A stretch of 64,000 bases of DNA, taken from positions 558,001 to 622,000 of the forward strand of contig NZ_LMIW01000008.1 in the NCBI RefSeq assembly GCF_001429185.1, in the 5' to 3' direction. The stretch comes from Terrabacter sp. Root85 (GTDB lineage: Bacteria > Actinomycetota > Actinomycetes > Actinomycetales > Dermatophilaceae). Below, piece by piece: positions 1,708-61,587 of this stretch (its first letter is position 1; each line of letters opens with the position of its first letter). The notes below the pieces were generated by a model that was not told where the DNA came from, ran no database searches, and saw only the letters and a list, made by a program, of their open reading frames with translations. The translations under genes and the position numbers were made by a program.

Positions 1708-1772
1708 GCAGCCCCGTGTCTCACGATCCGGGCAGCGGTCCCGAGGGGTGGACGCGAGCGGAGCGACCGGCA

Positions 1773-1778
1773 TACGGT
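1773..1778 (+). promoter_or_regulatory. -10 element of the leuA leader transcript (leaderless leader peptide)
   Basis: TACGGT lies exactly 6 bases before the GTG of the leucine leader peptide. That spacing puts transcription initiation at or next to the start codon. The hexamer is partly formed by a copy of the GGCATAC word at 1769-1775. No good -35 is visible. Seen in sequence; promoter use is inference. Confidence 0.5.
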
Positions 1779-1784
1779 GAACGG

Positions 1785-1829
1785 GTGCGAGCGGTGAGCC
1801 TCCTTCTTCTCTGCCGCGACGAGGCCTGA
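1785..1829 (+). CDS. Leucine leader peptide (leuL-type), 14 aa
   Basis: A tiny ORF GTG...TGA encodes V-R-A-V-S-L-L-L-L-C-R-D-E-A. Four consecutive Leu codons include CTT twice, which is rare in this GC-rich genome. Stalling of ribosomes at these codons when leucyl-tRNA is scarce would be sensitive and would expose or mask the hairpin that begins immediately after them. It lies 75 bases upstream of leuA. Leucine attenuators ahead of leuA are predicted for several actinobacteria, so the biology fits. A second in-frame GTG at 1794 could also start it. Confidence 0.8.
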   Translation: MRAVSLLLLCRDEA

Positions 1830-1850
1830 CCCCGGCCCTCCTCGTCGCGG
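1814..1850 (+). promoter_or_regulatory. leuA attenuator hairpin
   Basis: A perfect 11-bp stem has arms CCGCGACGAGG (1814-1824) and CCTCGTCGCGG (1840-1850) around a 15-base loop holding the leader stop codon. The left arm starts right after the Leu codon run, so a ribosome stalled there would cover it and prevent the stem. Only a short T run follows, so it may act as a weak intrinsic or Rho-assisted terminator. Confidence 0.72.
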
Positions 1851-1904
1851 AGTTTCCCGTGTCCGGCCGGACACCGAGCGAAACGCAGACGAGAGAGTGA
1901 CGCG

Positions 1905-58793: not shown

Positions 58794-59186
58794 ATGAGCG
58801 TCACGGTCTCGGTCAACGGCGCCGTCACCACAGCCCGGCTCGCGGGCGAGATCGACACGTACACCGTGCCGGACGTGCGGGCAGCGTTCGAGGAGATCGC
58901 CGTGGCACCGGGCGCCGCGGTGGTCGTCGACCTGCGCGCCGTCACCTTCCTCGACTCCTCGGGCCTCGGGGCGATCATCGGGCTCTACCACCGCGTCGTG
59001 GCGGCGGACGCCCGGCTCCAGCTCGTCTGCGGCGAGATCACCCTGCGGCTCGTCAGGCTGATGCACCTCGACCAGGTCATCGACGTCGTCGAGGCGCCCG
59101 ACGTCGACGTCGCGCCTGTCGAGGTTGCTCCCGCAGAGACAGCGGACGGCGTGGACCCAGACCGGGTCGACGCGGACCGATCCTGA
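58794..59186 (+). CDS. STAS-domain anti-anti-sigma factor
   Basis: The 130-aa protein is a SpoIIAA/RsbV-like antagonist with the phosphorylation site FLDSSGLGAI (S55). Unphosphorylated, it would bind the anti-sigma ATPase and free a sigma factor. A Val/Asp-rich extension (about 105-130) follows the domain. AGGAGG precedes the ATG. The neighbouring ATPase and PP2C phosphatase make a complete partner-switching set, though the sigma factor is not in the window. Confidence 0.9.
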   Translation: MSVTVSVNGAVTTARLAGEIDTYTVPDVRAAFEEIAVAPGAAVVVDLRAVTFLDSSGLGAIIGLYHRVVAADARLQLVCGEITLRLVRLMHLDQVIDVVEAPDVDVAPVEVAPAETADGVDPDRVDADRS

Positions 59187-59219
59187 CCTGACGGTCCGCC
59201 CTCCCGGGACCCCGTCGGC

Positions 59220-59603
59220 TCAGGACGCCAGTCTCAGGTGCACGCGGATGCGCGTACGCGTGGGGCGGGCCTCGATGGTCAGCCGGTCGCTCAGCCGCTG
59301 CGCGATCCACAGCCCGCGGCCGCTCGTCGACTGGTCGTCGAGCGCGAGGACCTCCGGCACCGACCCGGTGCCGTCGTCGTCCTCGACCGTGAAGACGAGC
59401 GAGTCGGCCGTCTCGTCGATGAGCAGGACGCCGTGACCGCCTCCGTGGACGATGCTGTTGACCGCGATCTCGTGCACGGCCAGCACGGCGTTGTCGGCCC
59501 GGTCCGGGATGCGTTCGCCCGCGATCGCCCGCACGATCTCACGCACGCGACGCAGGTCGTCAGGGCCGAACTCGACACGACGGAGCTCGCGTCCCCTGGC
59601 CAC
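59220..59603 (-). CDS. Anti-sigma-factor-type serine kinase/ATPase
   Basis: The 127-aa GHKL ATPase of the RsbW/SpoIIAB group has an N box AVHEIAVNSIVHGG and G boxes VEDDDGTG and STSGRGLWIAQ. It should phosphorylate the STAS protein and bind a sigma factor. The GTG at 59603 has a GAGGTGAGGGG site; an ATG at 59645 would add 14 residues but lacks one. It converges on the STAS gene and is divergent from the phosphatase gene. Confidence 0.85.
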   Translation of the reverse strand: MARGRELRRVEFGPDDLRRVREIVRAIAGERIPDRADNAVLAVHEIAVNSIVHGGGHGVLLIDETADSLVFTVEDDDGTGSVPEVLALDDQSTSGRGLWIAQRLSDRLTIEARPTRTRIRVHLRLAS

Positions 59604-59684
59604 CCCTTGACCCCTCACCTCTGCATGCTCCCACTTCTGCGGCATCCGTGGTTGCCCAAGCCCTTCGGCTGTCAGGATGACCCC

Positions 59685-61484
59685 ATGAACGCGCCATGGC
59701 AGAGCCCGGCGGCGAGCCGTGCGTCGGTCGCCCCGAGGCTGGCGGCGTTGGCGGGCATCGCGGCCCAGGTCGCGGCTGCCACGACGCTGGAGGAGCTCAC
59801 CGAGACCATCACCGAGCGTGCGTCGACCGTCATGGGCGCCTCGCGGGCCGTCCTGGCGGTCCAGGACGGCCCGACGCGTCTGCGCACCATCGCCACCCAC
59901 GGCCTCACCGCGTCCGAGGCCCGGCAGTGGGCCAGCCTCGAGCTCGACGCCCGCTCGCCGCTCACCGACGCCGTCCGGACCACCCAGATCGTGTCGGTCA
60001 CGGGCCGGGCCGAGCTCCTCGAGCGCTACCCGGAGCTCGATGACGGCACGGAGCGGTCGTCGGTGACGCTGCCGCTCATCTCCCGAGCCGACGGCTCGCC
60101 CATCGGGGCCGTCGGTTTCCGCTTCGACGGGCTCGTCGGACCGGTCGACCCGGATCTGGTGTGGGTGCTGGGCGTGCTGGCGGACATGTGCGCGCAGACG
60201 ATGCTGCGCCTGCGCGCCGAGGCGCAGAGCGCCACCCGAGCCGCCCAGCTGGAGTTCCTGGCCGATGCGTCGCAGGCGCTCGCCACCACCCTCGACTACC
60301 GGCAGACGCTGCGCCAGGTCGCGTCGCTCGCCGTGCCGACGCACGCGGACTGGTGCTCGGTCCAGATGGTCGACGACGGTGTCCTGCGGACCCTCGCCGT
60401 CGCGCACGTCGACCCCGACAAGGTGCAGCTCGCCAAGGAGCTCGAGACCCGATGGCCCTCTGACCCCGATCGGCCCGGAGGGGCGGCCCAGGTGGCGCGC
60501 ACCGGGAAGAGCCTGCTCATCGACAACGTCACCGACGAGATGCTCGTCGCCGCGGCCCGCGACGAGGAGCACCTCCGGGTGGCGCGTGAGCTCGGACTGC
60601 GAAGCGCCATGACGGTGCCGCTCATGGCCAAGGACCGGGTGCTCGGGGTGCTGACCTTCGTGGCGGCCGAGTCCGGTCGCCGCTACACGCGCGACGACGT
60701 CGCCTTCGCCGAGGACCTCGCCCGACGGGCCGGCCTGGCCATCGACAACGCCGACCTCTACTCCCAGACGCGCCGTGTCGCGTCGGTGCTCCAGGCGACG
60801 CTGCTGCCCCAGGACCTGCCCGAGATCCCCGGCTGGCAGATCGGGACGGTCTACCGACAGGCGGGGCGCACCGACGTGGGTGGTGACTACTACGACGTCA
60901 GCGGGCTCGACGACGGCCGGGTCACGGTGGTCCTCGGTGACGTCATGGGCCGAGGGGTCGACGCGGCTGTCGCTGGCTCGCGGATGCGTTCTGCTGCAAG
61001 GGTGCTGGCGACCCAGGATCCGGAGCCCGAGGCGCTCGCCGGTGCGATGGACCGCTTCATGGCGACCGAGCCGCCGACCCAGATGGCGTCGTCCGTCTAC
61101 CTGCTGTTCGAGCCGGAGCGGGACGACCTCGCCCTCGTCGTCGCCGGGCACCCGCCGCCGCTGCTCGTCCAGGGCGGTCTCACCCGGTTCGTCAGCGAGG
61201 ACGGCTCGCCGGTCCACGGCCTCGGTGAGGTCCCCCGAGCCTCGGCCCGGGTGCCCTTCGAGGTCGGTGACCTGCTCCTGCTCTACACCGACGGCCTCGT
61301 CGAGCGCCGCGGAGAGAGCATCGACATCGGGCTCAAGCGCCTGCGAGCTGCCGCCGAGGAGCTTTTCACCGGCGCCGACGACGACACCGACCTCGACGAG
61401 GTCCTCGACCAGCTGACCGAGGCGGTCTCCGACCCGGACCGGCACGACGACGTCGCCGTCCTGGCGTTCCGCCGCGTCGTCTGA
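59685..61484 (+). CDS. GAF-GAF-SpoIIE serine phosphatase
   Basis: A 599-aa cytosolic PP2C-type phosphatase predicted to dephosphorylate the STAS protein. Two GAF domains (about 20-175 and 200-365) sense an unknown signal. The SpoIIE domain follows with DVGGDYYDV, VLGDVMGRGVDAA and the final HDDVAVLAF, which hold the metal-binding aspartates. CAGGAT lies 6 bases before the ATG, a leaderless layout. A linker helix (DLYSQTRRVASVLQATLLPQ) joins sensor and catalytic parts. Confidence 0.92.
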   Translation: MNAPWQSPAASRASVAPRLAALAGIAAQVAAATTLEELTETITERASTVMGASRAVLAVQDGPTRLRTIATHGLTASEARQWASLELDARSPLTDAVRTTQIVSVTGRAELLERYPELDDGTERSSVTLPLISRADGSPIGAVGFRFDGLVGPVDPDLVWVLGVLADMCAQTMLRLRAEAQSATRAAQLEFLADASQALATTLDYRQTLRQVASLAVPTHADWCSVQMVDDGVLRTLAVAHVDPDKVQLAKELETRWPSDPDRPGGAAQVARTGKSLLIDNVTDEMLVAAARDEEHLRVARELGLRSAMTVPLMAKDRVLGVLTFVAAESGRRYTRDDVAFAEDLARRAGLAIDNADLYSQTRRVASVLQATLLPQDLPEIPGWQIGTVYRQAGRTDVGGDYYDVSGLDDGRVTVVLGDVMGRGVDAAVAGSRMRSAARVLATQDPEPEALAGAMDRFMATEPPTQMASSVYLLFEPERDDLALVVAGHPPPLLVQGGLTRFVSEDGSPVHGLGEVPRASARVPFEVGDLLLLYTDGLVERRGESIDIGLKRLRAAAEELFTGADDDTDLDEVLDQLTEAVSDPDRHDDVAVLAFRRVV

Positions 61485-61587
61485 GCGGACGTCCGGTACC
61501 CCTCGGCGCCGGGAGGGGCCGGTTCGAGCTGCCGGCCGGGGGAGTGGCTCGCCGGTGGGCGCGGACGCAGCGGACGGCATACGCCCC

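Follow-up and report, generated by a model that had tools for sequence, protein, structure and literature searches.

Why does one short word recur so often along an actinobacterial chromosome? The question arises from a stretch of 64,000 nucleotides of Terrabacter sp. Root85 (contig NZ_LMIW01000008.1, positions 558,001 to 622,000; hereafter the window), in which the octamer GTATGCCG occurs 33 times, 15 times on the plus strand and 18 times on the minus strand, and its heptamer 35 times. A preliminary description of the window had counted both by hand, and our computed search reproduces its totals, with the start of the first copy corrected from 1769 to 1768. Here, we describe the statistics, placement, and variants of this word across related genomes, and we propose that GTATGCCG, which is preferred in the longer form CGTATGCCGT and often as CGTATGCCGTCC, is probably a DNA uptake sequence (DUS) with dialects in monoderm bacteria, working via a Tad/Flp pilus.

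Abundance, placement, and conservation of the word

In 100 dinucleotide shuffles of the window, the octamer appeared 1.05 times on average and never reached 33 copies, and an order-3 Markov model predicts 1.72 copies, in line with the roughly two that the preliminary description had estimated. Under the same model, GTATGCCG has a z score of 23.8 in the window, narrowly second, by 0.1, to its own one-base-shifted neighbor (23.9). Across a 464-kb sample of the genome, it ranks first among octamers (218 observed versus 11.0 expected). In these 464 kb, the preference runs on into CGTATGCCGT (81 versus 0.84 expected) and into the still longer form CGTATGCCGTCC (30 versus 0.10). The preliminary description had considered that the genome-wide count might fall near expectation; instead, the whole genome (4.87 Mb in 15 contigs) holds 2300 copies, 1168 and 1132 by strand, while the control, GTATGCCG read backwards, occurs 237 times (112 and 125). 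The word is non-palindromic, its density is near one copy per 2 kb, and its spacing over 400 contiguous kb is near random, with a coefficient of variation of the gaps of 0.91. The strand split over the same 400 kb, 101 versus 84 as counted without reference to the replication origin, leads us to reject a strand-biased signal of the Chi or KOPS type, as had already been argued from the mixed orientation. A further word, ACTCCCCC/GGGGGAGT, is likewise over-represented in this genome (35 versus 4.1 expected in the 464 kb sampled).

Placement was assessed against genes called with our own gene caller. Of 258 copies in 564 kb, 165 are genic and 93 intergenic, at densities of 0.33 and 1.40 per kb, respectively; the corresponding values in the 464 kb are 0.33 and 1.66 per kb, so intergenic DNA carries GTATGCCG at four to five times the genic density. 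Within intergenic DNA (464 kb), density varies with gene layout, from 2.87 per kb between convergent genes to 1.60 between tandem and 1.22 between divergent ones. Genic copies read mainly Tyr-Ala, or Ala-Tyr on the other strand, and are biased in orientation (112 versus 53). We rejected codon usage as the source of the word, a possibility raised in the preliminary description, since synonymous-codon shuffling of the called genes (20 shuffles) leaves 8.8 copies (sd 2.8) of the 165 observed. Among the 218 copies in 464 kb, neighbors less than 60 bp apart form 10 inverted pairs and 1 direct pair, and some of the inverted pairs are stable hairpins by folding.

In the window, two inverted pairs could form terminator-like hairpins, one of them perfect (13700-13707 plus and 13726-13733 minus; fold -34.8 kcal/mol, z -6.35) and the other between convergent genes (55310-55317 plus and 55337-55344 minus; -37.6 kcal/mol, z -7.28), and a third pair flanks a long stem (42562-42569 plus and 42627-42634 minus; -55.5 kcal/mol, z -5.25). 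Single copies lie between convergent genes at 22979..22986, 33488..33495, and 51204..51211 on the plus strand and at 29162..29169 and 61575..61582 on the minus strand. Other intergenic copies are found at 1768..1775, 12226..12233, and 13823..13830 (minus) and at 39652..39659 and 45572..45579 (plus), and one copy sits at a gene boundary (6058..6065, minus). Plus-strand copies inside called genes are those at 4175..4182 and 4763..4770 (gene 3699-5237), 7380..7387 (6849-7577), 10560..10567 (10007-10852, gene on the opposite strand), 15596..15603 (15348-16076), 17435..17442 (17343-18047, opposite strand), and 20084..20091 (19011-20240). Genic copies on the minus strand lie at 14956..14963 and 15028..15035 (14483-15322), 19810..19817 (19011-20240, opposite strand), 27213..27220 (26572-27921), 36093..36100 (36070-37125), 39752..39759 (39723-40439), 41229..41236 (41077-42501), 49292..49299 (48580-49503, opposite strand), and 52558..52565 (52322-53071).

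Orthologous sites, whose conservation the preliminary description had singled out as informative, were compared at the Tad locus region. Across six records of relatives, the word is intact in 54 of 61 comparisons of aligned sites (9/11, 10/11, 11/12, 8/8, 10/11, and 6/8 per record), a tally that represents roughly twelve sites, all from a single region, met repeatedly in related genomes and not independent observations. Composition-matched 8-mers in the same six records are intact at fractions of 0.64, 0.66, 0.50, 0.50, 0.50, and 0.30. Two of the seven lost sites differ by a single change that turns them into GTACGCCG, the word of other genera. Each of six 21-kb loci from these relatives carries 11-15 copies, compared with 1 in a 16.6-kb locus of Paenarthrobacter. 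The TadA protein of the window genome is 83-97% identical to those of Terrabacter, Terracoccus, and one 'Intrasporangiaceae bacterium' record, and 65% identical to that of Intrasporangium oryzae.

Dialects within the family

We searched 186 genomes of 53 genera, a family that is probably the Dermatophilaceae of GTDB, using presence thresholds that we set for each word. Counts of GTATGCCG per Mb separate these genomes into two groups, low and high; 108 genomes, from 31 of the 53 genera, exceed the threshold. Other genera carry variants: GTACGCCG is above threshold in 10 genomes of 6 genera and GGATGCCG in 7 genomes of 3 genera. Two genomes pass for two words, and 63 of the 186 have none of the three. 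A fourth form, GTACGGCG, reaches 3117 copies in genome G084; among the 42 genomes tested, most of those with GTACGCCG have elevated counts of it too. In addition, all 19 genomes of genera g27 and g36, which belong to the 63 lacking the first three words, carry an unrelated word, CGAAGGGGG/CCCCCTTCG, with 797-1939 copies each, balanced between the strands, while each of the 41 other genomes among the 60 tested has at most 64 copies. Some word is thus found in 142 of the 186 genomes, and 44 have none of those that we identified. Outside the family, the 362 genomes that we searched from 19 other families of the same order all fall below the GTATGCCG threshold (at most 180 copies per genome); there, the word often outnumbers its reversed control, at small counts by as much as about fourfold.

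The dialect words behave like GTATGCCG under synonymous shuffling. In samples of 80-100 kb per genome, we counted 55 copies versus 10.1 for GTACGCCG, 57 versus 13.2 for GTACGGCG, 49 versus 8.3 for GGATGCCG, and 34 versus 4.2 for CGAAGGGGG. In G178, intergenic DNA is richer in GGATGCCG than genic DNA (1.48 versus 0.78 per kb), and the word occurs in pairs resembling hairpins. Inverted intergenic pairs are thus seen in the Root85 genome and in G178; they were not evident in the small samples of G090, G084, and G057.

Some genomes stand out individually. In G084 (L071-L074), GTACGGCG often lies within the palindrome CGCCGTACGGCG; nine inverted pairs less than 60 bp apart occur there, and of the 8 listed, 7 are this palindrome. 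Two dialect words are raised together in G144 and G147 (genus g44) and in G036 and G037 (g15), which are perhaps in transition. G008 (g4) and G114 (g42), with 37 and 50 copies of GTATGCCG, are lone species in otherwise GTATGCCG-rich genera. Another word, CTACTCGACC/GGTCGAGTAG, has 13 copies versus 0.2 expected in 80 kb of G090 (L079-L082).

Competence and Tad pilus genes

The preliminary description had looked to com genes as possible companions of the word, and the Root85 genome does encode comEA and comEC, along with Tad gene clusters. Close to its TadA1 gene are a DUF4244 Flp-like pilin, a TadE_Rv3655c minor pilin, and an Rv3654c-type TadE-like protein. Across the family, comEC is found in 180 of the 186 genomes, a comEA-type repeat in 179 (97 above the curated cut-off), and a TadA1-type ATPase in 184 at E <= 0.001 (168 above the curated cut-off). 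Being present in nearly all genomes, comEC, comEA, and TadA1 failed as predictors of the word. In Micrococcus luteus, competence needs both tad clusters, as a passage of PMC4322843 states.

We considered the Tad1 pilins as the receptor by comparing them by eye across dialects at 40 loci, one of them only 3.3 kb long, and found no residue that tracks the dialect among the rows listed, of which at least the TadE rows of G003 and G149 are plainly in wrong frames. At E < 1e-6, Flp-like pilins were matched at 32 of the 40 loci, Rv3655c-type TadE proteins at 32, and Rv3654c-type proteins at 30. Seven of the 40 gave no pilin match: G007, G009, and G103 (genomes with GTATGCCG), G014 (GTACGCCG, the 3.3-kb locus), G084 (GTACGGCG), G053 (CGAAGGGGG), and G011 (wordless). 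A TadA1 tree of the 31 sequences out of 41 from which TadA could be extracted shows 11 changes of dialect label, versus a mean of 14.9 for shuffled labels. Finally, among genomes at least 90% complete, a single TIGR03819 match occurs in 8 of 56 genomes without the first three words and in 0 of 107 with one (P 1.4e-4); we give this association little weight because it is uncorrected for relatedness and because the 56 include the CGAAGGGGG genera.

Phage-like and mobile DNA

Foreign DNA offers a further view of the word, and mobile elements in Neisseria have been found through their atypical DUS distribution (PMC7371117, in part). A phage portal protein (profile PF04860) is encoded in 9 of the 186 genomes, of which we examined five, leaving out the word-poor G068, G155, G157, and G162. 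Three portal-bearing stretches (L152-L154, namely two whole small contigs and 20 of the 33.1 kb of a third) contain a single copy, versus 11.2 expected at the genome mean. Together with the portals in two larger genomes, discussed below, these counts give mixed support to a role in uptake. In the Root85 genome, the longest GTATGCCG-free gap spans 12.0 kb (L017:19094 to L018:11064, equivalent to G000:C8:339093-351063) and contains a serine recombinase (PF00239, PF07508). This stretch is probably an integrated element and, as the extreme among 184 gaps, does not on its own constitute a test.

Interpretation and alternative explanations

The preliminary description had compared GTATGCCG, as a dispersed and orientation-neutral word, with DUS and uptake signal sequences (USS) on the one hand and with HIP1 on the other. 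The first comparison stands, favored by the balanced orientation, the intergenic inverted pairs, the dialects of sister genera, and the com and Tad genes that these genomes encode; the second does not, as HIP1 is palindromic and GTATGCCG is not. While membership of the DUS/USS class can be claimed only once uptake is shown, that the word works like one is in our judgment the best reading and likely the correct one.

Our data show the word with its statistics, its conserved sites in a single region, its dialects, and the presence of genes that such an apparatus requires. The competence of these bacteria, the enhancement of their DNA uptake by the word, and the identity of the protein that reads it are inferred. 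In the simplest mechanism, the competence apparatus would have a DNA receptor at the cell surface, most probably one of the minor pilins of the Tad/Flp pilus, that binds word-bearing fragments better than others, and DNA would pass from this sequence-preferring Tad pilin to ComEA and then to ComEC. The preference would favor DNA released by close relatives. Copies would build up because fragments bearing the word enter the cell and recombine more frequently, and would be tolerated where they do least harm, namely between genes or in acceptable codons. A change of receptor in sister genera could then give rise to other dialects. The receptor step is a guess, given that the Tad1 pilins showed nothing across dialects and that apparatus genes also occur in wordless genomes.

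On a broader scale, we lean toward the view that self-recognizing DNA uptake evolved independently, on a Tad/Flp pilus, in this monoderm actinobacterial family, and that its word switched several times, by one or two letters (GTATGCCG, GTACGCCG, GGATGCCG, GTACGGCG) and through wholesale replacement (CGAAGGGGG). Such repeated switches within one family would make it a natural series of receptor-specificity changes.

Several observations weigh against an uptake role. The genes for comEC, comEA-type, and TadA-type proteins occur in wordless genomes too, and comEC in 10 of 14 control genomes, including E. coli; apparatus genes therefore show capacity at best. Tad1 pilins, in which no residue follows the dialect, occur with and without a word. 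Eight of the 44 wordless genomes were sampled (60-100 kb each) and gave no clear candidate word. In the GTACGCCG and GTACGGCG samples of 80 kb each, intergenic DNA is not enriched in the word (it holds 3 of 58 and 2 of 59 copies, respectively), and these GC-rich words have a higher background. The CGAAGGGGG sample contains no close pairs. Around the portal of G090, 40 kb hold 15 copies versus 28.8 expected, a depletion only by half, and the 40 kb around the G120 portal show none (5 versus 5.8), counts that refer to the 40-kb stretches and not to delimited prophages. The narrow base of the site conservation belongs here as well.

A chromosome-binding protein could yield similar statistics, and of the alternatives this is the one that survives best: the word would be the site of an intracellular protein that organizes or replicates the chromosome (nucleoid-associated, segregation, or recombination), maintained by selection and changing together with its protein between genera. 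The conservation of orthologous sites in the tested region, the near-random spread, and a family-specific word with discrete variants would all fit. The familiar sites of such proteins show strand bias (Chi, KOPS), occur in clusters (parS, matS), or form palindromes, unlike the near-even strand split of GTATGCCG over 400 contiguous kb, and a density of about one per 2 kb, a bias toward convergent genes, and inverted pairs suit uptake sequences better. The phage-DNA counts do not discriminate between the two. Taken together, we consider a chromosomal protein unlikely.

Much less probable is that a DNA methyltransferase recognizes the word as its target and that its abundance follows from modification, as proposed for HIP1, which parts of PMC4390886 discuss in connection with orphan methyltransferases; GTATGCCG does not share the palindromic structure of HIP1, and the word differs between related genera. 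We give equally little credence to a transcription terminator or other RNA-level signal. The intergenic and convergent-gene enrichment and the stable hairpins would be explained, but the plain form is rejected because 165 of 258 copies lie within called genes, and the mere 10 inverted pairs among 218 copies also speak against it; moreover, the uptake sequences of Neisseria and Pasteurellaceae themselves sit in terminators (PMC1852404, in part). A mutation or codon-context bias, suggested by the prevalence of Tyr-Ala and Ala-Tyr in genic copies, can be dismissed almost entirely, as it is contradicted by the synonymous shuffles, the higher density between genes, and the conservation in the tested region.

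If GTATGCCG and its variants do serve in uptake, they would constitute a third, independent case of uptake sequences, this time in monoderm bacteria, where five forms of the word are spread over 142 of the 186 genomes of one family. The case would be relevant to the long-standing question of whether uptake words reflect receptor bias plus recombination or selection for exchange with kin. In addition, Tad-pilus competence would gain a sequence-specific readout, which could aid the laboratory transformation of these bacteria.

Comparison with known systems

Uptake sequences have been reported from Pasteurellaceae and from Neisseriaceae (PMC7811141, in part). Among the matches listed in the open PMC literature, we found no uptake sequence in actinobacteria, and the 20 matches listed, of 3142 papers that contain the letters of GTATGCCG, are unrelated.

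The likeness to the DUS of Neisseriaceae is extensive. According to passages of PMC3630211, these are short non-palindromic words with about 900 to 5900 copies per genome, they form few-letter dialects between species and genera, and the family includes one genome with two dialects and five without any; pairs of them lie in terminators (PMC1852404, in part). The Neisseria 10-mer is GCCGTCTGAA and its receptor is the minor pilin ComP (PMC6370729, in part). The present case differs in its actinobacterial hosts, its Tad/Flp-type pilus genes, and the second, unrelated word in two genera; no ComP was found, although no search was aimed at one. In the 12-letter form of the Neisseria DUS, two further letters precede GCCGTCTGAA. 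CGTATGCCGTCC has ATGCCGTC in common with this 12-letter form, a match that we take as coincidence because the CTG core described in part of PMC3630211 is missing from CGTATGCCGTCC.

The USS of Pasteurellaceae is similarly an abundant, competence-linked word that often lies within terminators (PMC1852404, in part), and differs in its letters and in the phylum that carries it; its receptor, unknown, has lately been predicted to be a minor pilin (PMC12616744, in part). The HIP1 octamer of cyanobacteria, GCGATCGC, resembles GTATGCCG in being very abundant and dispersed, and departs from it in being palindromic (PMC4390886, in part). As for actinobacteria, two papers on M. luteus (PMC4322843, PMC8467076) do not contain the term 'uptake sequence'. 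The likeness to the Flp-pilus-dependent transformation of this species is one of gene presence, with comEA, comEC, and Tad clusters likewise found in the genome that carries the window.

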